This document shows, piece by piece, positions 1 through 42,295 of a stretch of 42,295 nucleotides of DNA. The notes under the pieces were generated by a model that saw only the letters and a list, made by a program, of their open reading frames with translations, was not told the origin of the DNA and did no database searches. Origin of the DNA: a virus; IMG/VR virus record IMGVR_UViG_3300044713_000087, positions 1 to 42,295 of that record; one strand, given 5' to 3'. Each line of letters begins with the position of its first letter. Positions within the stretch are counted from its first letter, which is position 1. The position numbers and the translations under genes were made by a program.

Positions 1-153
1 GTTTCCGACGCTTTCGGCGATATCGGCCGCCAGGCGGCGACCGCGTTCTCGTCGCTGTCGCGGCTGGTGCCGGTCATGGGCGCGATCGGCGGCGTGGCCT
101 CGCTCGCCGGCCTCGCCGGGCTCGGGCGGCAGTGGGCGAGTTTCGCGACGCAA
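1..153. repeat. Left copy of terminal direct repeat (genome-end overlap)
   Basis: Bases 1-153 match 42143-42295 without gaps and with two substitutions: base 15 is C here and T in the right copy, and base 27 is C here and G there. Both copies sit in the same frame of the same gene, and both differences are third-codon-position and silent (Phe and Gly codons). This shows that the window is a circular or circularly permuted molecule opened inside the tape measure gene. It is not a functional repeat within a larger chromosome. Confidence 0.95.
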
Positions 154-2698: not shown

Positions 2699-3258
2699 TG
2701 GCGGTGCCCGACTTCGCCGCGGCCTCGGAACGCCTCGCGGCCGCGGTTTTGGCCTCGACCAGCGACCCGGCCGACGCGATACGGCTACTGTTCCCGCTGT
2801 GCTCTTACGTGCCGCCGCGCCTGCCCGGAACGGGCCCGCTGTCGGCGGCGATCCGCCTGGCGCAAAACGCGCTGGCGGCGAAACTGCGGTGCGACGCCTG
2901 CGCGGCGCTGGCGCGGGCGACCGCCCTCTATCAGCCGCGGTCTTACCAGGATGCGCAATCGCTGCGCCTGGCGGTGGTCGGCGCCCTCGACGCTGAGGCG
3001 ATTCGCAATGCCGACCAGGGCAACGACGCGACCTATCAGGCGTTGCGCGATCTGCGCACCGCCGTCGCCCTCGACCTGGCGATACGCGGCGCCTATCTCG
3101 CGACGCTGGTCGAGGTGCAAACCTACGTGCCGCAGCCGTCGCTCGCGCAGGCGTGGGCCCTCTATGGCGACACTACGCGCGAGCCGGAGCTCGTCGGCTC
3201 GGCCGCCCCGCGGCACCCGCTATGGCTGCCGGTCACCTTTCCGGCATTATCGCGATGA
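2698..3258 (+). CDS. Mu gpN-like baseplate protein, C-terminal half in a shifted frame
   Basis: This 186-aa product starts at an ATG in a TGATG overlap. It has the features of the C-terminal half of gpN-type proteins: a helical 'DFAAASERLAAAVLAS' start, 'DPADAIRLLFPL', 'YQDAQSLRLAVVGALDAEA', 'LRDLRTAVALDLAIRGAYL', 'YVPQPSLAQAWALYGD' and a closing 'RHPLWLPVTF'. It has no DNA_circ_N domain of its own, which is supplied by 1818-2624. The two parts plus the micro-ORF total about 480 residues, close to an intact family member by my estimate. A recent split of one gene is more likely than two unrelated genes; an assembly error cannot be excluded. Confidence 0.7.
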   Translation: MAVPDFAAASERLAAAVLASTSDPADAIRLLFPLCSYVPPRLPGTGPLSAAIRLAQNALAAKLRCDACAALARATALYQPRSYQDAQSLRLAVVGALDAEAIRNADQGNDATYQALRDLRTAVALDLAIRGAYLATLVEVQTYVPQPSLAQAWALYGDTTREPELVGSAAPRHPLWLPVTFPALSR

Positions 3259-4401
3259 GTGATCGGACTTGGGGCACCAGTTCCGCGGGGGAAGCCGGTC
3301 GGCGCCGAGGATGCCCTCGCCCTCATCGTCGGCGGCCGCGAATGGGCCGGCTGGCAACGAGTGAGTGTGACCCGGTCAATGGACACCGTACCGGCGGCGT
3401 TCGCCGTGCAAGTCACCGAACGCTATCCGCGCACCGCCGACATTGCGGTGGTGCCGGGCGATGCGTGCCAGGTCAAGATCGGCGGCGACCTGGTGATTAC
3501 CGGCTACATTGACCAATACACCTCGCAGATTAGCGCCGGCGACCACACGGTGCGCATTGCCGGGCGGTCGAAGTCGGCCGATTTGGTCGACTGCGCGGCG
3601 TTTGTCGGCTCGCCCGATGCGCCCTCGTTCCAAATCAAGGGCGGCACCGCCCTTAGCATCGCCCAACAGATCGCCAAGCCCTACGACGTCGAGATTTCCT
3701 CGGTTTCGGGGCCCGGCGCCGAGATCCCGCAGTTCAACATCGCGCTAGGTGAAACTGCATATGAAGTGATCGACCGCATTACGCGCTACAGTAAACTAGT
3801 AATATACGATATGCCCGATGGAAGCCTGGTGATGGCGCAAGCCGGCAGCGAAAAGATGGCGAGCGGGTTTGCCCAAGGCGAGAACGTCGAGCAGGCGGTA
3901 GTGACGTTCTCAATGGACCAAAGATTTTCTGAATACTATGGGCATTTGCTCTCGACTGGGGTTTTCGGCGACGACACAGGGTCGGCTGCAACGCGGGTCG
4001 GCCAGGTGGTGCGCGACGACGGGGTGAAACGCCTACGGCGCAGATATATCATCAGTGAGCAAAGCCACCTTGGCAAGTTCCTGGCGCACGACCGGGCGAT
4101 TTGGGAGCGCAACCGGCGTTATGGCCGCAGTCAAGCCGTGCAGATCACCGCCGACGCCTGGCGCGACGCGCGCCGGCAATTGTGGGCGCCAAACCACCTC
4201 GCCCCGATCAGAATCCCGGCTCTGAAACTGCCCGACGCGTCGTGGCTTGTCGCCCAAGTGCAGTATCTCAGAGATGAGACCGGGCAGCATGCCGCTTTGG
4301 TGATGATGCCGGTCGAGGCTTTCAGCCCCGAGCCGTTGGCGTTGCAGCAAACGCCGCTGATGGTCGAACACGTCGAAAGGTTCAACGCGGCGGGCCGATG
4401 A
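3259..4401 (+). CDS. Baseplate hub protein, Mu gpP-like (phage late control D / T4 gp27 type)
   Basis: This 380-aa product starts at a GTG directly after the preceding TGA. The N-terminal part has the hub-domain style 'GREWAGWQRVSVTRSMDTVP', 'FAVQVTERYPR', 'PGDACQVKIGGDLVITGYID' and 'HTVRIAGRSKSADLVDC'. The middle has 'GETAYEVIDRITRYSKL'. These strings are typical of the Mu gpP/P2 gpD family, which forms the trimeric hub joining the tail tube to the spike. Gene order (gpN, gpP, gp45) is that of Mu. The stop overlaps the spike gene start (ATGA), so the two are probably translated together. Confidence 0.85.
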   Translation: MIGLGAPVPRGKPVGAEDALALIVGGREWAGWQRVSVTRSMDTVPAAFAVQVTERYPRTADIAVVPGDACQVKIGGDLVITGYIDQYTSQISAGDHTVRIAGRSKSADLVDCAAFVGSPDAPSFQIKGGTALSIAQQIAKPYDVEISSVSGPGAEIPQFNIALGETAYEVIDRITRYSKLVIYDMPDGSLVMAQAGSEKMASGFAQGENVEQAVVTFSMDQRFSEYYGHLLSTGVFGDDTGSAATRVGQVVRDDGVKRLRRRYIISEQSHLGKFLAHDRAIWERNRRYGRSQAVQITADAWRDARRQLWAPNHLAPIRIPALKLPDASWLVAQVQYLRDETGQHAALVMMPVEAFSPEPLALQQTPLMVEHVERFNAAGR

Positions 4402-4874
4402 GCGAGCAAAGCCAACTAGATCGCCTCTATCGCCGCACCACAATGATGGTTGCGCCGGTCAAAATCGTTGCGACCAACGATGAGGGACCCGTGCATCGGG
4501 CGCAGATCGAAATCAACGGCACGCCCGAAGTATTGGACGATGTAGCTGTAGTCGAAATATATGGCGTGGCGTCACACGCACCGGTAAACAGCGATGCGAC
4601 CGCGTTTTTTGTGCAGGGAAACCGGTCGAATGCGGTCGTCATCGGCACGAATAATCAAAAATTCCGGCTGCGCGGCCTGAAATCGGGCGAGGTGGCACTT
4701 TACACCGACGAGGGCGACGAAATTCGCATGGCGCGTGGGAAAATCGTCGAGATCAAAGCCGGCGAGCAAGTGAAAATCACCTGCAAATCGGCGCTCGTCA
4801 TCGCCGAGGACAAAATGCGCGTAGAATCGCCGAGGCTAGAATGCACCGGCGATATCGAGGCTAACGTGCCGTGA
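4398..4874 (+). CDS. Baseplate spike protein, Mu gp45-like, apparently truncated at the C-terminus
   Basis: This 158-aa product starts in an ATGA overlap with the hub gene. It shows the gp45 order: an N-terminal helix with 'LDRLYRRTTMMVAPVKIV', an OB-like barrel, 'VVIGTNNQKFRLRGLKSGEV' and 'ALYTDEGDEIRMARGK', then short beta repeats ending 'VESPRLECTGDIEANVP'. Family members normally continue for another 30-40 residues with a His-containing tip (HxH) that binds a metal at the spike apex. That part is absent here, and a minus-strand nuclease cassette begins exactly at this point, overlapping the last 14 bases. I infer that the insertion removed the tip, or that the phage uses a blunt spike. 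Confidence 0.8.
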   Translation: MSEQSQLDRLYRRTTMMVAPVKIVATNDEGPVHRAQIEINGTPEVLDDVAVVEIYGVASHAPVNSDATAFFVQGNRSNAVVIGTNNQKFRLRGLKSGEVALYTDEGDEIRMARGKIVEIKAGEQVKITCKSALVIAEDKMRVESPRLECTGDIEANVP

Positions 4875-5088
4875 CTGCCCGGCTTGCCGTGCGCCAATTT
4901 GACGGCGGCGGGTTCTGTTGGTGCAGTCGCGCGAGCCTATTCAGCCATGTGGCGATCGGCGGCGGAATTGGCGTGCGACCCTGCAGCCATGCCGTCGGCA
5001 GATTGCGGTGCGAGCCGATGCGGATCGCCAATTCGCGGCCCGACCAGCCGATCGCGGTCAACGCCGCATGCAATTCGGCGGGCGTCAT
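4861..5088 (-). CDS. Small helix-turn-helix protein of the inserted cassette
   Basis: This 75-aa product starts at an ATG that overlaps the stop of the GIY-YIG gene (ATGA), so it is the last gene of a three-gene minus-strand operon. The sequence 'MTPAELHAALTAIGWSGREL' followed by 'AIRIGSHRNLPTAWLQGRTP' and 'PPPIATWLNRLA' is the pattern of small XRE-like HTH proteins in which the second helix pair contacts DNA. It could regulate the cassette or hold down nuclease activity. It ends inside the 3' end of the spike gene. The start was chosen for coupling; a longer upstream frame exists but only shadows the nuclease gene. Confidence 0.65.
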   Translation of the reverse strand: MTPAELHAALTAIGWSGRELAIRIGSHRNLPTAWLQGRTPIPPPIATWLNRLARLHQQNPPPSNWRTASRAVTAR

Positions 5089-9287: not shown

Positions 9288-10380
9288 CAACGCCACCGCG
9301 ATAGCGGCATTGCCGGCGCCCGAGCCGGTCGGCACGCCCGGTTTTTTCACCAACGGCAACCGCCCGGCCGGCCTCGCCCCGACCCGCGTCGACGACAATT
9401 GGCTCAACACGGTGCAAGAGGAAATCGCCAACGTCGTGCTTGCCGCCGGCTTGCAGCTGTCGAAGGTTAGCAACACACAGCTTTACGAGGCAATACAGGC
9501 AATCGCCTACGGTGCTAACCCCGATCTGTCGGCCTATCTGCCGTTGTCGGGCGGCACGCTGTCGAGTCCGGGCAATTTGACTGTTAACGGACAACTCACG
9601 GTCAATAACGGAGACTTGCTGCTCGGCGCCGGCGCTTCCGGTGTCATTACCCGAGCACCCGGCACCGTCATGTCGTTAGGGGCCACCGGTGGCGGCAATG
9701 TCGCCACGCTTAATCTCGGCGCCGATCAAGTCAACGCTATTGGCGGCCTGCATGCTCGTGCCGATCTCGATGTCAGCGGCAGCTTGACCGTTAGCGGGCT
9801 TAGCCATTTGTTGTCTGGTTGCGCGATCACCGCAAATCTCGAAGTCGCCGGCAGCTTTTCGGTTAGTGGCCCGCTTAATGCCTTTTTTGGTGGTTATGTC
9901 GTTGGAAATTTCGACGTTGCTGGGAATTTACTCGTCAGCGGTACAGATATCAACGGGGTCGATCACGGTATCATATTCAACAGATACGACAATTTTAAGA
10001 GGTTCGCCTTTTCTCAACCGGATACCCGTTTCCAGGTTTGGATCGCCGGGCTTCATTTTGGCGATATTCAATATACCCCGGCGATTGCATCGCTAACCAA
10101 CATCGCACCGGCCGCCGACAAAGACGCGCTCGCCGCAATCCGAGCTATCGAGCTTTTCGCCTACGATCGCCTAGGACGGCGCGATGAACTCGGCTTTCTC
10201 GCGGCGCAAATGCACACGGCGATTCCAGAAGCGGCGACGGTTAGCGCGGCGGGCGACGCGGGCGAGCCGCAATACACCCTCGACTGGCTACCGATTGCGG
10301 CCTATTCGGTGCGCGCCATTCAACAACTGGCCGACCGGGTCGAGGCGCTCGAGCGACGCCCGGCGCCGCTGCCAGCATGA
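9274..10380 (+). CDS. Tail fibre protein 2 with C-terminal chaperone-like (peptidase S74 type) end
   Basis: This 368-aa product has an N-terminal part with 'GFFTNGNRPAGLAPTRVDDN' and 'WLNTVQEEIANVV', common in phage fibre proteins. A shaft follows with repeated 'V.G.L.V.G' turns, including 'LDVSGSLTVSGL' and 'LEVAGSFSVSGP' about every 20 residues. The last 100 residues ('AIRAIELFAYDRLGRRDELG', 'FLAAQMHTAIPEA', 'YSVRAIQQLADRVEALER') resemble the intramolecular chaperone of S74 fibres. I see no clear Ser-Lys cleavage site, so the end may stay attached. The shaft repeats would form a trimeric beta-helix. The stop overlaps a downstream ATG. Confidence 0.75.
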   Translation: MHRIDNATAIAALPAPEPVGTPGFFTNGNRPAGLAPTRVDDNWLNTVQEEIANVVLAAGLQLSKVSNTQLYEAIQAIAYGANPDLSAYLPLSGGTLSSPGNLTVNGQLTVNNGDLLLGAGASGVITRAPGTVMSLGATGGGNVATLNLGADQVNAIGGLHARADLDVSGSLTVSGLSHLLSGCAITANLEVAGSFSVSGPLNAFFGGYVVGNFDVAGNLLVSGTDINGVDHGIIFNRYDNFKRFAFSQPDTRFQVWIAGLHFGDIQYTPAIASLTNIAPAADKDALAAIRAIELFAYDRLGRRDELGFLAAQMHTAIPEAATVSAAGDAGEPQYTLDWLPIAAYSVRAIQQLADRVEALERRPAPLPA

Positions 10381-14299: not shown

Positions 14300-14550
14300 C
14301 AAATATCGCTTTCGTTGGCGGGGCGGCCGACCATACCCTCGAGCTCGCCGATCGCTTCTTTAAGACGTTCCCAACCATCATCGCCATCGTAGTAGCGCGC
14401 CCAAACGACAGTCCGCGCTTTCGTCCATACATCGGCCTCGGGCACGATCCCGACCTGGCGCAGATAAGCCGCGCAAAGGTCGTGGGCTTCCTGGACCAAT
14501 TTCGTAAGGGCTGCCTCCAATTTCGTAAGGGCTGCCTCGTCGACGCTCAT
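14299..14550 (-). CDS. 83-aa acidic protein with an in-frame tandem duplication
   Basis: The ATG at 14550 overlaps the stop of the ATPase gene (ATGA). The product begins MSVDEAALTKLEAALTKLVQ, where a seven-residue unit is present twice because of a perfect 21-bp DNA duplication. The rest ('VWARYYDGDDGWERLKEAIG') is mixed helix, with no family that I recognise. The duplication lengthens the first helix by two turns. Confidence 0.55.
   Translation of the reverse strand: MSVDEAALTKLEAALTKLVQEAHDLCAAYLRQVGIVPEADVWTKARTVVWARYYDGDDGWERLKEAIGELEGMVGRPANESDI
14496..14537. repeat. Perfect 21-bp tandem duplication
   Basis: Bases 14496-14516 and 14517-14537 are identical, with unit start CCAATTTCGTAAGGG. 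The unit is 7 codons, so the reading frame of the minus-strand gene is kept. Absence of any mismatch suggests a recent slippage event. Confidence 0.9.
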
Positions 14551-16226
14551 GCCGCTACCTCGGCGAGCTCGTGCAGCGGCTGCGCGACGCCGCCCTCGAT
14601 CCAATAGGACGCCCCGAGCTCGGCCGCCGCGAGATCGGGCACCTGTTCCTTGCGCGACAAGGTCATGCACACGAGGGCGGGCATGCTGGCCTCGACGAGC
14701 AGCGCAAAGAGCCCGCTGCGGGTCGGGCCGTCGAGCACGTCGGCCGCGTCGAGCACCACCATCGCCGAATGATCAAGGTCGGCCATTGCGACTTGCAGCA
14801 CCGCGCGCACCCGATATTGCTCGCTTGTCGAGCACAACCCGTAAGGGCGCCCGTCATAGGCCGCAGTCATGTCGAATGAGACGGTGACCGCGCGCCAGCC
14901 GGCGGCCTCGCTGTGAGCGGCGAGCGTGCGGTTGAACGCCTCGAGCACGTGCAGCAATTTGCGGGCGCGCAGCCCGTCGGGGGCGAGCAGGTCGAGCACC
15001 GCCTCGTTGGTTACGATCCGCTCGTGCAGGTCGTCGGCCTCGCGCTTCGCCCGAAAGCCGGCGAGCCGTTTCTCGGCGCGATCGAGGGCGGTTTTCGCCG
15101 TCGCGACGTCGGCGCCGGCGGCGACTGCCGGCGGCAGCGCTTTCAGATAGTTGGCGGCCTCGGCGGCGTTTTGCAGGGCGTGCCGGGCTGTCTCGACGGC
15201 GCGGTTCGCCTCGACCACCTCGCCGGTCAAGCGGCTGACCAGCCCGTCGGCCTCGGCGATTGCGTCGCGGCGCTTTTTGAGCTCGGTCGCGAGCGGCGCC
15301 GCCTCGGCCGCCTCGAGCCGGGTTTCGGCAAGGTTGACCCGGCGCAAGACGACAAACGCGCCGCAATGCGGGCACGCCATGCCGGGGTCGACGTTGCCCG
15401 GCGGCAACGCCGCCCGCGCGGCCTTGGCCTCGTCGAGCCGGCCGGCGACACCCTCGGCAAATTGCTCGGCGCCGCGCAGCAAATCCTTCGCCGGATCGAG
15501 TTTCGTGGCGCCGGCCGCCAGGCGGTCGCGTTCCGCGCTCGACACCGCGGCGGCGCCGATCGCCGTCTCGTGCTCGTGCTTGGCGCGCGCCAGGGCGGCG
15601 AGCAAATCGTTTTCGTTGGCGTCGTCGTCGTCAAGATCCGGGCGCCACGCCGCACCGATGCGTGAGCCGTAATCGCGCCCGGTCACCTGGCGCCAACGCG
15701 CTTTCAATTCGACGCCGCGGTCGCGCCGCACCTGGTGCGCGCCATCCCAACCCTTATCCTCGATGATCTGCCAAATCGCGGTGACCGCATCGGCGCCAAG
15801 CCCTATATCGGCCATCGCCGCCGCCAGGTCGGCGCGGTCGGGCGCGGCGTGCAAATAACTGCCGAAAATGCGCGCGCGATCCTTCGCCGGCAGCGCCACG
15901 ACGCTTTGCAGACCCGCCGCATAGACGCTTGCCGCCGGGGGCTCGCCATTGGCCCGCACCTGGCAACCGGGCCAGTCGATCCGCGCCGTTCCTGATTCGC
16001 CCTGTATCGCGATATAGCCGTGCTCGGCGCCGGTCTTGACCAATTGCGCCGCACCCGCCTTGGTAACGCCCGCAACCGGGGTGACGTCGCCGCACAGCAC
16101 CGCGCCGACGCCTTGGGCGAGCGACGATTTGCCCTGCGCGTTGCGCCCGGCGACAAGGGCGATCGGGGCGAGCTCGAGCGAGGCGCGCTCGCAGCCGCGA
16201 TAGTCTCGGGTTTCGATGCGGATCAT
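14547..16226 (-). CDS. SbcC/Rad50-like ATPase with a zinc-hook motif
   Basis: This 559-aa product has a Walker A motif at residues 27-35 ('GRNAQGKSS') and coiled-coil segments around a CxxC hook at 285-288 ('MACPHCGAF'). Near the end it has an ABC-type signature region ('CSTSEQYRVRAVLQVA') and Walker B-like 'MVVLDAADVLD'. The order and hook match a small SbcC/Rad50 protein that dimerises through zinc. In Walker B the usual catalytic Glu is Ala (LDAAD), so turnover may be slow or the protein may act as a clamp. No SbcD nuclease is encoded, though a PD-(D/E)XK exonuclease lies in the same operon. Likely role: DNA end handling with RecT. A RecF-like protein is the alternative. Confidence 0.8.
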   Translation of the reverse strand: MIRIETRDYRGCERASLELAPIALVAGRNAQGKSSLAQGVGAVLCGDVTPVAGVTKAGAAQLVKTGAEHGYIAIQGESGTARIDWPGCQVRANGEPPAASVYAAGLQSVVALPAKDRARIFGSYLHAAPDRADLAAAMADIGLGADAVTAIWQIIEDKGWDGAHQVRRDRGVELKARWRQVTGRDYGSRIGAAWRPDLDDDDANENDLLAALARAKHEHETAIGAAAVSSAERDRLAAGATKLDPAKDLLRGAEQFAEGVAGRLDEAKAARAALPPGNVDPGMACPHCGAFVVLRRVNLAETRLEAAEAAPLATELKKRRDAIAEADGLVSRLTGEVVEANRAVETARHALQNAAEAANYLKALPPAVAAGADVATAKTALDRAEKRLAGFRAKREADDLHERIVTNEAVLDLLAPDGLRARKLLHVLEAFNRTLAAHSEAAGWRAVTVSFDMTAAYDGRPYGLCSTSEQYRVRAVLQVAMADLDHSAMVVLDAADVLDGPTRSGLFALLVEASMPALVCMTLSRKEQVPDLAAAELGASYWIEGGVAQPLHELAEVAA

Positions 16227-16468: not shown

Positions 16469-17428
16469 TCACATATCAAATTTGACCTGGCGGCGGCCCG
16501 CCGGTTTCGGCTGCTCATTCGATACTGTGGTTTGCTGCGCTGTGGTTTCCTGCGCGACAGCCTCGCCCGGCGGCGGCGGTTCCTCGCCCGCTGGCGGGCC
16601 CGCTGGGGCGGTGTTGCGCGGGCCAGGTGGTCGCCCGCGCCGCGGCCGCTCGCGAGGCTCGGCGAGCGGCCGCGGGGTGACGTCGACGAGGTTTTCCTCG
16701 AAAGTATCTTCCTCGTGGTCGAACGGCACGCCCATCAACAGCGATGGGGCAACGGTGCTCGCCAAGCGCCGCACACCGGCATACTGGATTTGAGTTTTAG
16801 GATCGGTCGCCCATAGGGTCGAATTGCGCGGCCAAGCTTGCACCAAATCGAAGTCTAGGCTGCGATCTTCGGTTTCGCCTTTGACGCGGCAACTGATGGT
16901 TACGCCGCAACCGATTTCATCTTCCGGTTTATAGGTCGGCACTGGATATTCAAAACCCTTGTCCGACCGCGCCATTCGGAATTTGCGCTGCACCTTGGTC
17001 CAGTCGCCAAAATGTTTGTATTTGACGCTGCCGGCGAGGCGCCCCGAGGCCTCGAGGATGGCTTGCACGAGCTTGCCTTCATAGCCGACCTTGCCGCCTG
17101 GTGTCTGATAGGTCGAGGCCGCGACCATGTAGGGGCTGAGATTCCAAGTCAGCGAAAGGTTAACGACCGCTAGACAGCTTTCGGTCTTGCCGAGCAGGTG
17201 CGGCGGCGCGAACCCGACGGCTTTGGCGAGACTTTGCGCCGCGGCCTGGCAGGCTTCACGCCATAGCGGATCGAAAAAAATCCGCAGGCCGATCGGCATT
17301 GTCGCCGAACCCGGCAATGCCGCCAAGGCGCCCTCGGCGGGTGCGATCTCTGCGGGCAACGCCGGCGCGGGATCGGCGGCGCCGTCCGGGCGCGGGTCGA
17401 CAAGCTGCGGGCGCGCTGTTTCAGCCAT
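16469..17428 (-). CDS. recT: RecT-family single-strand annealing protein
   Basis: This 319-aa product has an Ala/Pro-rich N-terminal tail, then the RecT core from residue about 55: 'GFAPPHLLGKTESCLAVVNL' followed by 'WNLSPYMVAASTYQTPGGKV', 'GYEGKLVQAILEASGRL', 'AWPRNSTLWATDPKTQIQYA' and 'GVRRLASTVAPSLLMGV'. The last 75 residues are a Pro/Arg/Gln-rich tail. RecT proteins anneal complementary single strands made by a partner exonuclease, here probably the Fe-S nuclease at 19402. The start is preceded by a GGAGA site. The gene follows directly on the 0.6-kb pentamer array, which lies in its 5' leader. Confidence 0.9.
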   Translation of the reverse strand: MAETARPQLVDPRPDGAADPAPALPAEIAPAEGALAALPGSATMPIGLRIFFDPLWREACQAAAQSLAKAVGFAPPHLLGKTESCLAVVNLSLTWNLSPYMVAASTYQTPGGKVGYEGKLVQAILEASGRLAGSVKYKHFGDWTKVQRKFRMARSDKGFEYPVPTYKPEDEIGCGVTISCRVKGETEDRSLDFDLVQAWPRNSTLWATDPKTQIQYAGVRRLASTVAPSLLMGVPFDHEEDTFEENLVDVTPRPLAEPRERPRRGRPPGPRNTAPAGPPAGEEPPPPGEAVAQETTAQQTTVSNEQPKPAGRRQVKFDM

Positions 17429-17461: not shown

Positions 17462-18082
17462 GACGGCAGGACTGGACAACGCCAGCCCTGCCTTGCCCCG
17501 CCCGCGCCCGGCCAGACCGGGCTGGGCCGCGCCTGGCCCGCCACGCCGAGCCGGCCTTGCCACGCCATGCCGCGCACAGCTTCATCAAGCCGCACCTAAC
17601 ACGGCTAAAACCGCGCCGTGCCCTGCCGGCCTTGCCGTGCCCAGCCGCACCGCACCTAGCCGAGCCGCACCCAGCCGCGCCGAACCGCGCCGGCCTTGCC
17701 ATGCAGTGCGATGCCTCGCCCCGTATTGTTCCGCCACGCCGGGCCAAGCCCAAGCCTGCCTTGCCCCGCCGCGCCGAGCCCTGCCAGGCAATGCCCCGGC
17801 AAGCCCTGCCGTACCGCGCCGGCCTTGCCAAACGCGGCATAGCCGCGCCGAGCCTTCGCCGCGCCAGGCTGCGCATTGCCGGGCAAAGCGATGCCTCGCC
17901 GGCCTTGCCAAACGCGGCCGAGCCGGGCCATGCCATGCCACGCCAGGCATAGCCCTGCCTGGCCGAGCAAAGATTGGCCGCGCCGGCCTTGCGTTGCCAC
18001 GCAATGCCTCACCAGACCGTGCAATGCTGCGCTGCACCCGGCTATGCCAAGCCACGCTTTACCCCGCCTTGCCAATTGCCAG
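17462..18082. repeat. Degenerate 5-bp tandem array (NNGCC on the plus strand)
   Basis: This 620-base stretch has no convincing gene. It consists largely of pentamers of the form NNGCC (GGCNN on the minus, transcribed strand), for example GTGCC, CAGCC, GAGCC and ATGCC in series. A longer unit, CCGGCCTTGCC, recurs at 17551, 17626, 17690, 17819 and 17899, with a sixth copy ending in G at 17983; copies 4 and 5 share the extension AAACGCGG. Register slips occur between blocks. Long open frames here exist on both strands because the pentamers seldom form stop codons, and their translations are repetitive. It lies between the 18083 gene and recT in the early-left operon. Confidence 0.85.
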
Positions 18083-18622
18083 TCAAGCGCCGGCCGCGGC
18101 TGCCGGGCTGTCGCCCTGTCGCTGCCGTGCCCGCCGCTCGCTTATTCGTTGTCGTGCTTCCTGGACAAGCGAACAAATGTCGGTAAGTTCCTTGTACCGC
18201 CGTTCAAACGCCGCGAGCTCGCGGTCGGCTTGCCGCAATAGAAGGTCTTGCAGCGTTGCATTGTTCACGACGTCGCTGACGCGATGATAGGCGGTAACAC
18301 CGTCGGCTGTGATCGAGACATAAGCCCGAGTCAAAGCCGACCGATCCTGCGCCTTATCGTCGATAATCCTGATCGAGCTCACCAAATGCCGCGCCTGGCC
18401 CAAACGCCAATACTGCGCGGCCTCGGCATCGTCCCAATCAAAATGACGGTGCAGCACCGATTTTTCGGCACGCGCTACCTCGATAATCTTGATTGGCACG
18501 AGCAGACCGTCATGCGCCGCAGTGATCCGCGCCAGTTCTTCACCGACCGCTTGCGGATTGGCCTCGATCATGTTCTTGACAAAGAAGCCGGCATCGGCCT
18601 TGAAAGCATATTGCAATGCCAT
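18083..18622 (-). CDS. Conserved phage protein, unknown function
   Basis: This 179-aa product has GGAG nine bases before its ATG. 'FVKNMIEANPQAVGEELARI' starts a helical domain. 'KSVLHRHFDWDDAEAAQYWR' and 'LGQARHLVSSIRII' form the motif I associate with a family found in many phage early regions, where it is never functionally assigned. The C-terminal 60 residues are a charged coiled coil ending in an Arg/Gln/Ala-rich tail. It is between the recombination genes, so a nucleoprotein role is possible. The pentamer array begins right after its stop codon. Confidence 0.7.
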   Translation of the reverse strand: MALQYAFKADAGFFVKNMIEANPQAVGEELARITAAHDGLLVPIKIIEVARAEKSVLHRHFDWDDAEAAQYWRLGQARHLVSSIRIIDDKAQDRSALTRAYVSITADGVTAYHRVSDVVNNATLQDLLLRQADRELAAFERRYKELTDICSLVQEARQRISERRARQRQGDSPAAAAGA

Positions 18623-18628
18623 CGGGGA

Positions 18629-19372
18629 TTACTCCGCCGCCATCGCCATTTCAAAAGCGGGCTGCGGCAATGGGCCAGTGCCATTAGCAAAGGCATCCCA
18701 CTCGCGCGCCTCGTCGTCGCTGGCGAGATGAAACGCGCCGAAATAGCCGCTTTTTTCATTGCGCCAGTCGCCTATGCCGATCGCGAGCCCGGCTTCCTCG
18801 ATCAGATAGCCGAGCGACTCTTTGGTCAGAACGTCGACATTGAGACTGCCGGTGATTCGAAACGCCCAAATCGTAAACTGCGCGCGATAGGCAAAATCCG
18901 CGGTCTTGCGAACGCCGGCGCCGACCCGCACCATATCCTCGCGCATTTCCGGGTCTGACCCGTAAATCCGCAACAAGGGCATGTCGCAGATCGCACCGGC
19001 GAGCGCTGGCCGCGTGCGCACGATTACCGGGTCAATCCACAGTGCCGCGGCGGCGCCCAATGCGCCGCTGCGCGCAATGCCCTTGTCTTTGTGAGTAACC
19101 CCGAGGATCGCTTTTTTTAGCGCTGTCGCGGGGAACCCGTAGACTCCAGGCTGGCCCATTTCATAAAGAGAACTGAGAAAATCCGCCTCGGGGTCGCGCA
19201 CCTCTCGGCCGGCGCTGACCGATTTCACCTGTTTGGCGAGCATTTCGCGCTTGGCTTTTTCCGACCAAGCATGAGTAATCAACGGCGTGTTACCGATTAC
19301 CCAAAGTTGGAACCGTTCCTTTGTAGCGCGACGAATCATCGTCGCCGATAGTGTCGCGGTCGTCTTTGCCAT
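18629..19372 (-). CDS. Conserved phage recombination-region protein, unknown function
   Basis: This 247-aa product starts at MAKTTATLS because AAAGGAG lies eight bases before that ATG; a start at 19405, overlapping the previous stop (ATGA), would add 11 residues. Features are 'LWVIGNTPLITHAWSEKAKR', 'GVYGFPATALKKAILGVTHK' and 'YGSDPEMREDMVRVGAGVRK'. The combination 'TPLI.H...KAK..' with 'FPA.ALK.AI' is familiar from phage early proteins near exonucleases. The fold might be a ferredoxin-like single-strand binder; this is a guess. It is co-transcribed with the exonuclease and recT. Confidence 0.65.
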   Translation of the reverse strand: MAKTTATLSATMIRRATKERFQLWVIGNTPLITHAWSEKAKREMLAKQVKSVSAGREVRDPEADFLSSLYEMGQPGVYGFPATALKKAILGVTHKDKGIARSGALGAAAALWIDPVIVRTRPALAGAICDMPLLRIYGSDPEMREDMVRVGAGVRKTADFAYRAQFTIWAFRITGSLNVDVLTKESLGYLIEEAGLAIGIGDWRNEKSGYFGAFHLASDDEAREWDAFANGTGPLPQPAFEMAMAAE

Positions 19373-19401
19373 TTCCCTGACTCCTTTGCCTCGCGATGCC
19401 A

Positions 19402-20253
19402 TCATTTCTCTTGCCATTCGTGACAGAAGTCAGTCGAATGGGCCGGGCAATACTTTGCCGAGCATAAAATGCTATTGGGATTGGCCTGAAACGCCCAAGG
19501 ATCGCCGGGCAAGATTCGCCGCACCGCATCGCCGTTGCGGAACGTGTCAAGGTCGGCCGCGATATGCCGCAAAATGTTGCTCGCCGCGGTTTCGGCCTGG
19601 CCGACCGCCACCGGCTTTGATTCCGGGTCGAGCTGCGCCTTGCCGATCGCGACGCGCCGGATGCTGTCGACCGCCGCCTCGGCGATATCAAACCCGTTGG
19701 AACGCGCGAGCAGGCTATAACCGCCGATCTGCGGCGCGTGCGTGGCGCCCGTGCGGGTCGAGGTTTTGAGATCGCGCACCCGGTGCGGTTCGCGGGCGAC
19801 GACGTCGGGTTGACCCGACAGGATCACGCCCGGCAGCACCTCGGCCTCGAGGCGTTCCTCGACGATGATCGGCTCGACCGCCGGGGCAATGTGCCGATGA
19901 TAGGCGCGGGTCATGGCGACCGTCTGTACCTCGGCCTCGACCCGGTTCGCGGTCGTGCGGTCGAAGTCGACTCCCTGGCGCACACCCTCGGCCAATGTCT
20001 CGACGGCGCAGTCGGCGGCGACCGTCGACGGCGGCAGACTGCCGCTTTCGGCTTTTTCCTTAAGGATCACCTCGGCCGCACGGTGCACCGCCGAGCCGAT
20101 CGCGGCGCCGATGCCGCGCGGTGTCGAGCGCAACCGAAACCCGGCGGCGCTGATCTCGCGCCAGAACAGCCGCGCGGCACCGCGACGCGGGCAGTCGGGC
20201 CACCAGGTCAATGCCGAGCACCGGATGATTGTCGGAAGTGCGGTCTCGGTCAT
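19402..20253 (-). CDS. PD-(D/E)XK exonuclease with probable Fe-S cluster (Cas4/AddB-like)
   Basis: This 283-aa product starts in an ATGA overlap. The N-terminus has 'SALTWWPDCPRRGAARLF', the RecB-family entry motif with Cys21. Then come 'AAIGSAVHRAAEVILKE' (His57), Asp150 in 'LSGQPDVV', the catalytic pair in 'RVRDLKTSTRTGATHAPQIG' (Asp161, Lys163) and Tyr179. The C-terminus carries three cysteines ('ILCSAKYCPAHSTDFCHEW'), which with Cys21 form the usual four ligands of an iron-sulfur nuclease. It would chew double-strand ends and feed strands to RecT, replacing lambda Exo or RecE. Confidence 0.82.
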   Translation of the reverse strand: MTETALPTIIRCSALTWWPDCPRRGAARLFWREISAAGFRLRSTPRGIGAAIGSAVHRAAEVILKEKAESGSLPPSTVAADCAVETLAEGVRQGVDFDRTTANRVEAEVQTVAMTRAYHRHIAPAVEPIIVEERLEAEVLPGVILSGQPDVVAREPHRVRDLKTSTRTGATHAPQIGGYSLLARSNGFDIAEAAVDSIRRVAIGKAQLDPESKPVAVGQAETAASNILRHIAADLDTFRNGDAVRRILPGDPWAFQANPNSILCSAKYCPAHSTDFCHEWQEK

Positions 20254-41985: not shown

Positions 41986-42295
41986 TCAAGGGCGCGGCGG
42001 CTACGCGGTCACCTTTTCGGTCGTCGACCAGGCGACCGGGCCGATTGACGCGATACAGCGGCGCATCAGGCAGCTGCGCGAGCCGATCGACCGCATGCGC
42101 CGCGACACGCAAGATTTCATCAACCCGCAAGGGCTGCGGAAGGTTTCCGACGCTTTTGGCGATATCGGGCGCCAGGCGGCGACCGCGTTCTCGTCGCTGT
42201 CGCGGCTGGTGCCGGTCATGGGCGCGATCGGCGGCGTGGCCTCGCTCGCCGGCCTCGCCGGGCTCGGGCGGCAGTGGGCGAGTTTCGCGACGCAA
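41972..42295 (+). CDS. Tape measure protein, N-terminal part (runs off right end, continues at base 1)
   Basis: The ATG at 41972 overlaps the end of the frameshifted gp41 product, a normal position for the tail tape measure gene just after the chaperones. The frame is open to the end of the window. It continues in phase from base 1 to the stop at 1816-1818, giving about 662 residues in all. The first residues (starting MAQGSQGRGGYAVTFSVVDQ) match the usual start of Mu/P2-type tape measure proteins, which open with a short strand and then a Gln/Arg-rich helix around 'AIQRRIRQLREPIDRMRR'. The protein would set tail length inside the tube and be delivered to the host during DNA injection. Confidence 0.85.
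   Translation, partial: MAQGSQGRGGYAVTFSVVDQATGPIDAIQRRIRQLREPIDRMRRDTQDFINPQGLRKVSDAFGDIGRQAATAFSSLSRLVPVMGAIGGVASLAGLAGLGRQWASFATQ
42143..42295. repeat. Right copy of terminal direct repeat (genome-end overlap)
   Basis: This is the partner of bases 1-153, offset by 42,142 bases, which gives the likely circular genome length. The frame of the tape measure gene that starts at 41972 is kept across the join (171 bases, 57 codons, before the repeat). The two silent mismatches suggest that the ends came from slightly different molecules in a population rather than from a trivial assembly duplication. Confidence 0.95.

Follow-up and report, generated by a model that had tools for sequence, protein, structure and literature searches.

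A five-base repeat array before recT is almost certainly the guide-RNA array of a phage VIPR system

Introduction

A tract of degenerate five-base repeats lies in front of recT in the phage record IMGVR_UViG_3300044713_000087 (42,295 nt, analysed over its full length and referred to here as the window). The question raised by this locus is what such a tract (17462-18082) is for. An initial annotation considered a recombination hot spot, a partition or condensation site, or a long leader of recT. Our analysis points elsewhere, as the array is almost certainly the guide-RNA (vrRNA) part of a VIPR system. VIPR (Viral Interference Programmable Repeat), a relative of CRISPR, was described in a 2026 bioRxiv preprint (PMC13142463) in which Vipr, a small RAMP protein, uses vrRNAs of 9-16 GGY/NN repeats. 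The NN letters pair with DNA and one base is skipped per repeat (NNxNNx), and Vipr was reported to bind vrRNAs, to repress transcription and to be able to block phages, the experiments being chiefly on the SUSP1 and P. fulva systems (PMC13142463). The two ends of the window (1-153 and 42143-42295) were found to be identical at 151 of 153 positions, so that a complete genome, either circular or terminally redundant, is probably represented.

Results and Discussion

The repeat array and its units

The degenerate 5-bp repeat described initially is real. Identity at lag 5 was observed to be 0.518 in 17462-18082 against 0.310 +/- 0.018 in 1000 dinucleotide-preserving shuffles (z 11.6), with raised values also at lags 10, 15 and 20, and the highest lag-5 values of the 42.3-kb record are located in this region. 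Lag 3 was found to be below the shuffles and the array therefore has no codon periodicity. On the minus strand, the array can be parsed from 18073 to 17464 into 123 GGY-NN units (Table 1) where the spacing is 5 nt in 111 of the 122 steps, 4 nt in eight and 6 nt in three. Among these 123 units the GGY letters are conserved (entropies of 1.16, 0.35 and 0.62 bits) while the NN letters are near-random (1.96 and 1.97 bits, the maximum being 2). The first G is replaced by A, C or T in about a quarter of the units and some of the guides may therefore be decayed. The initial remark that no real gene fits was confirmed, as none of the open reading frames overlapping the array belongs to a Pfam family and the 4- and 6-nt steps disrupt any reading frame across it. 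The long open frames on both strands are present because the repeat rarely gives stop codons.

The initial annotation had also counted a longer unit six times. A recurring unit, CCGGCCTTGCC, was indeed observed, with five exact copies (at 17551, 17626, 17690, 17819 and 17899) and three one-base variants (near 17497, 17765 and 17985), and it turned out to be a guide boundary. Read on the minus strand, this unit is GGCAAGGCCGG, which holds a one-base phase slip (GGC-N-GGC) and divides the array at GGCAAGGCNGGC boundaries into about eight blocks, each of 64-90 nt. The same element was found to punctuate the arrays of relatives. Each guide starts directly after the slip and ends with the constant GGCAA-GGCN. 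Since the last NN before the boundary (AA in the window) fails to match the targets described below, the guide proper extends from the slip to one unit before the next boundary. Each guide has about 11-15 variable NN between boundaries, which can be compared with the 9-16 repeats per vrRNA of VIPR. The only constant element is 11 nt long and a structured 3' tail of the SUSP1 kind is not visible in the array; such a tail may be absent or may overlap the next guide. Three of four guides were predicted to fold barely more stably than shuffled sequences (z -0.07 to -2.8). An array interspersed with hammerheads was considered and rejected, since a comparison of the window with Rfam gave no known RNA family.

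Table 1. Positions of the VIPR genes, the neighbouring genes, the array and its guides in the window
Feature	Position	Strand	Basis or content
PD-(D/E)XK exonuclease gene, upstream of vipr	19402..20253	-	PF12705
vipr, 262-aa Vipr, RAMP (Cas7-like) fold	18629..19417	-	phrog_4652, PDB 36pp, model
vap, 179-aa Vipr-associated protein	18083..18622	-	phrog_15946; position after vipr
vrRNA (guide RNA) array	17464..18077	-	123 GGY-NN units, about eight guides, read 18077 to 17464
recT, RecT family annealing protein	16469..17428	-	PF03837, 9e-10; downstream of array
Constant boundary element GGCAAGGCCGG	17551..17561; others begin 17636, 17700, 17829, 17909	-	variants 17497, 17765, 17985
Guide 1	17986..18073	-	NN: GG AA GT TT AT CG GC GC AT AC CT GA AT GT AA + constant AA
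Guide 2	17902..17984	-	NN: GC CA TT TC CA AG TA CT GT AT AT CC TC CG TT + AA
Guide 3	17822..17900	-	NN: GA AT TT CC AA GC CT GC GA TC GC TA CG TT + AA
Guide 4	17766..17820	-	NN: GC AC AG TT GG AT CT AG TC GC GG; boundary variant GGCAAGGCAGG at 17765
Guide 5	17693..17754	-	NN: TT TT CC GT GG AA GG GA AT AC AT + AA
Guide 6	17629..17691	-	NN: GC TC GC TG GC TC TA GC GC TG AC + AA
Guide 7	17554..17627	-	NN: AG AC GC TT CG TA GC TT GA TG GC AT GT + constant AA
Guide 8, less regular	17487..17552	-	NN: TC GT G. CA GC CC CC CT CG GC GG + AA

Vipr, Vap and neighbouring genes

The gene order on the minus strand is vipr - vap - vrRNA array - recT. The array had been placed between genes for strand annealing and end processing; it does lie directly before recT, but vap and vipr separate it from the PD-(D/E)XK gene. 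Beside recT is an SbcC-like gene (559 aa, 14547-16226, weak PHROG match) which is 95-97% conserved in sister phages, and an exact 21-bp tandem duplication, CCAATTTCGTAAGGGCTGCCT, is located at 14496-14538, near the start of the 3' end of this gene.

Window Vipr and SUSP1 Vipr share phrog_4652 and match each other in a pairwise comparison at an E-value of 1e-8. When the whole PDB was searched with a Vipr profile (alignment A1, the window protein with 54 relatives), the single match was SUSP1 Vipr (36pp, E 2e-13), and the SUSP1 gene product that we used (KT454805 locus) is identical to the 36pp chain. The glycine-rich loop of Vipr is GIGDWRNEKSGYFG, with GxGEWRxEKxGxFGxF near the C terminus, and G214, W218, R219, G224 and G227 were found to be invariant among the 55 sequences of A1. 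The CRISPR RAMPs of the PDB were not matched by this profile at the sequence level, Pfam gave nothing significant for the family, and models for vipr or vap are absent from both PADLOC and NCBIfam. The AlphaFold model of Vipr (pLDDT 84, pTM 0.80) was also compared with known structures using Foldseek, where all 25 matches at E<=0.001 are CRISPR effector entries, mostly Cas7-type RAMPs, from type VII, Csm, Cmr or III-D effectors, with modest TM-scores of 0.26-0.40. The early suggestion that a 5-nt pitch would suit a protein filament agrees with Vipr being a RAMP of the Cas7-like kind; members of this family assemble into oligomers on the guide RNA.

The gene at the vap position follows vipr in nearly all loci of the window type. 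Its model (pLDDT 92) gave winged-helix-like matches that are weak, and these suggest a winged-helix-like DNA-binding domain. No relationship between the window vap (phrog_15946) and SUSP1 vap1 (phrog_5926) could be detected by profile comparison. This gene is vap by position and belongs to a family other than that of SUSP1 vap1.

Arrays and vipr in other phages

Arrays of this kind were collected by a DNA pattern of eight GGC-NN units in IMG/VR and, together with mycobacteriophage Donkeykong, they form a set of 121 loci. A Vipr-family gene was observed within 4 kb on the same strand in 83 of these loci and on the opposite strand in two, with none in the remaining 36, many of which are contig ends or weak arrays. 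Starting from the gene instead, most of 80 Vipr relatives in IMG/VR have a GGY array just downstream on the vipr strand, and one has a short array on the other strand. A BLAST search of the phage collection with the raw array matched Donkeykong only (two records), where the array, located in gp48, adjoins the phage's own vipr (gp49) and no recT is found among the annotated neighbours. Vipr is also encoded in 32 mycobacteriophage and Gordonia phage records (for example, NC_051648.1, 37364-37960), where those listed are annotated as 'hypothetical protein'; these homologues are possible laboratory systems.

One phage (L002) carries two VIPR systems in tandem. The first has a SUSP1-like vipr, a vap1-like gene and an array (892-1533, 2182-2691 and 2757-3063), and the second has a window-like vipr, vap and array (3086-3796, 3796-4278 and 4288-4981). 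A related phage (L001) has two arrays arranged in the same way. The arrays of L001 and L002 are otherwise near-identical, with 8 of 15 guides being identical and the others exchanged or changed. These differences represent guide turnover.

Such turnover is unlike a conserved leader and bears on the proposal that the array is a long 5' leader of the recT mRNA which tunes expression through structure or translation. The array does lie on the recT strand and stops about 35 nt ahead of the recT start, as a leader would, but the predicted structures are barely stabler than shuffles for three of the four guides folded. Arrays were observed to go with vipr (83/121) and not with recT, and Donkeykong has no annotated recT neighbour. 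A leader function is therefore very improbable as an explanation of the array, which may still have a secondary effect on recT expression.

The guide code

If the array encodes guides, the NN letters should match targets with one base skipped per repeat. We compared 330 guides from the window and its relatives with 1.96 Mb of phage DNA outside arrays, and at least nine of ten consecutive NN had to be identical for a match, whether the guides were real, read with another skip or shuffled. Eight guides were found to have targets at a skip of one base, against 0, 0 and 1 guides at skips of 0, 2 and 3 bases respectively and about 0.5 guides on average when the order of the NN was shuffled. The skipped base is codon position 3 in all eight of the one-base-skip targets.

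For three of the eight guides, the target is a conserved motif (EDMVRIGMGT, for example) in the vipr gene of another locus. Guides that match conserved motifs in the vipr genes of other phages are located in the arrays of the phages L201, L202 and L131, and the one in L201 can be fitted to dozens of these genes. Another guide, from L001 (2593-2650), matches the PD-(D/E)XK nuclease gene of the window (20075-20106) at 9 of 10 NN, and the nuclease copy of L001 itself has more mismatches to this guide, through a serine codon AGC in place of TCG. The remaining four targets are a DNA methylase gene, a tape-measure gene, a single-strand-binding/annealing gene and the gene family matched by guide 7 of the window. 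Single matches at the threshold of 9 of 10 NN can be due to chance. IMG/VR scans with guide 1 (10 NN), guide 2 (11 NN) and guide 3 (20 specified bases) gave no exact target, and chance matches are therefore rare at 20-22 letters. Guides 1-6 and 8 gave at most background-level matches in 2.47 Mb, so that a target was found for one of the eight window guides in the data searched, and no self-target above background was observed within the window.

A target for guide 7 in sister phages

The most specific match involves guide 7, whose 13 variable NN agree at 26 of 26 letters with one gene in two sister phages (L228, with the site at 9478-9515, and L229), where the next best site has 9 mismatches. 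The sister phages are closely related to the window, with an SbcC-like gene 95-97% identical and a shared nuclease gene and module beyond it. Neither an array nor vipr was found in the parts of the sister phages that were read. The slot filled by vipr-vap-array-recT in the window holds other genes in these phages, together with a gene for a protein of 345-348 aa; this last gene is the one matched by guide 7 and occupies the position of recT. The target protein resembles the RecT of the window solely in the first ten residues (MAETARPQLV) and in the C-terminal tail. Its family has no match in Pfam, NCBIfam or the PDB, the phage collection gave no family assignment either, and some of its members weakly match a PHROG family without annotation. 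From its place, we infer that the target could be an annealing protein.

Guide 7 is antisense to the target gene at ATIAQSKAYRNAV, and the site is the most conserved stretch of this gene, T/I-IAQSKAYRNAVL, although part of this conservation reflects the way in which the sequences had been selected. Scanning IMG/VR with 22 of the 26 letters (11 NN) gave 13 contigs and the reversed pattern, used as a control, gave none. In all 13 contigs the site is located within homologues of the target gene (50-100% identity) in the same codon frame with the skipped bases at position 3, and seven of them match all 26 letters. As these are homologous genes, the 13 contigs are not independent.

These targets weigh against the proposal that the array is a DNA element serving recT, such as a recombination hot spot, a partition or condensation site or a nucleation site for a protein filament. 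That proposal is in keeping with the location of the array directly upstream of recT and near the PD-(D/E)XK nuclease gene, but it leaves unexplained why near-random NN letters should decode, under a single skip rule, to sites that are matched exactly in rival phages. Moreover, such arrays occur beside vipr far from recT, nearly always in the vipr orientation, and sister phages without the array retain the surrounding module. We consider a DNA element to be highly improbable, and the roles first suggested (recombination hot spot, site of partition or condensation, leader of recT) are not sustained. The telling neighbours of the array are vipr and vap, on its 5' side, rather than recT, and similar arrays are located far from recT. 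Still less credible is the view that the tract is a non-functional GC-rich microsatellite under neutral drift or a degenerate gene for a repetitive protein, which would suit the long open frames on both strands but not the pitch of five bases instead of three, the frame-shifting 4-nt steps at guide boundaries, the absence of a Pfam family match, the 83:2 orientation with vipr or the exact targets. The idea that the array has been selected despite being non-coding was borne out, with the selected function being almost certainly that of a guide array.

Proposed working of the locus

As a vrRNA array, the tract would be transcribed with the operon and the RNA would be cut or terminated at the boundaries to give individual guides. 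Following the published mechanism (PMC13142463), Vipr subunits would then align along each guide and keep the GGY letters unpaired, and the NN pairs would recognise double-stranded DNA in the form NNxNNx. This recognition would be followed by a block of target transcription. In this way, guide 7 would shut down a gene of the recombination module in related phages competing for the same host. Very probably, the phage uses the array to silence this gene in competing relatives and is itself without such a target; we infer both the silencing and the benefit to the phage. Because the skipped base is the wobble position, rivals could escape only by an amino-acid change or by a few synonymous changes at positions 1 or 2. 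The serine codon of L001 in the nuclease target (AGC, compared with TCG in the window) is a difference of just this kind, and it is a single case.

We also put forward, tentatively and as a possibility that we rate at somewhat below even, that the VIPR cassettes of this clade are allele-exclusion weapons of the phage recombination module. Taken together, its parts are that the vipr-vap-array-recT cassette occupies the slot which holds another module gene in the sister phages and aims a guide at that gene, that a single exchange of cassettes both brought in the weapon and removed the phage's own target, and that the main role of the guides would be to police VIPR and homologous recombination among close relatives. 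The last part follows from other guides of the clade matching recombination genes and vipr genes of rivals. The self/non-self logic suggested here is one where the weapon replaces the gene it attacks.

The locus supports the guide code independently, in a distant clade, and shows how guides are delimited within packed arrays. Guide 7 supplies a specific natural target that is open to testing.

Comparison with known systems

Class 1 CRISPR effectors (Cas7/Csm3 RAMPs, type III and type VII) resemble the present system in that the Vipr model matches Cas7-type RAMPs and in the RNA-guided recognition by oligomerised RAMPs. In contrast to these effectors, the window has no repeat-spacer array, the code is non-contiguous and other cas genes were not seen in the module. 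CRISPR-Cas was rejected as an identification of the locus, as the unit is 5 nt with variable NN and the targets match only with gaps.

The closest likeness is to SUSP1 VIPR (type II; PMC13142463, PDB 36pp), which has a homologous Vipr (phrog_4652), the same order of vipr, vap and downstream array, GGY/NN guides, a one-base skip code with the skipped bases at wobble positions, and anti-phage targets. The locus is VIPR by every testable feature except the structured tail, a tail being described for the SUSP1 clade. It differs from SUSP1 in that the window Vipr is 24% identical and vap belongs to phrog_15946 instead of phrog_5926. In addition, SUSP1 has separate RNAs of about 100 nt with a structured tail, whereas the guides in the window are GGC-rich and follow one another head to tail, each pair being separated by an 11-nt boundary that holds a phase slip. 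The preprint also mentions 'staggered arrays with overlapping vrRNAs' (PMC13142463). The window array is similarly continuous, with no long spacers between guides, and, as far as this mention allows a comparison, it is plausibly of the same type.
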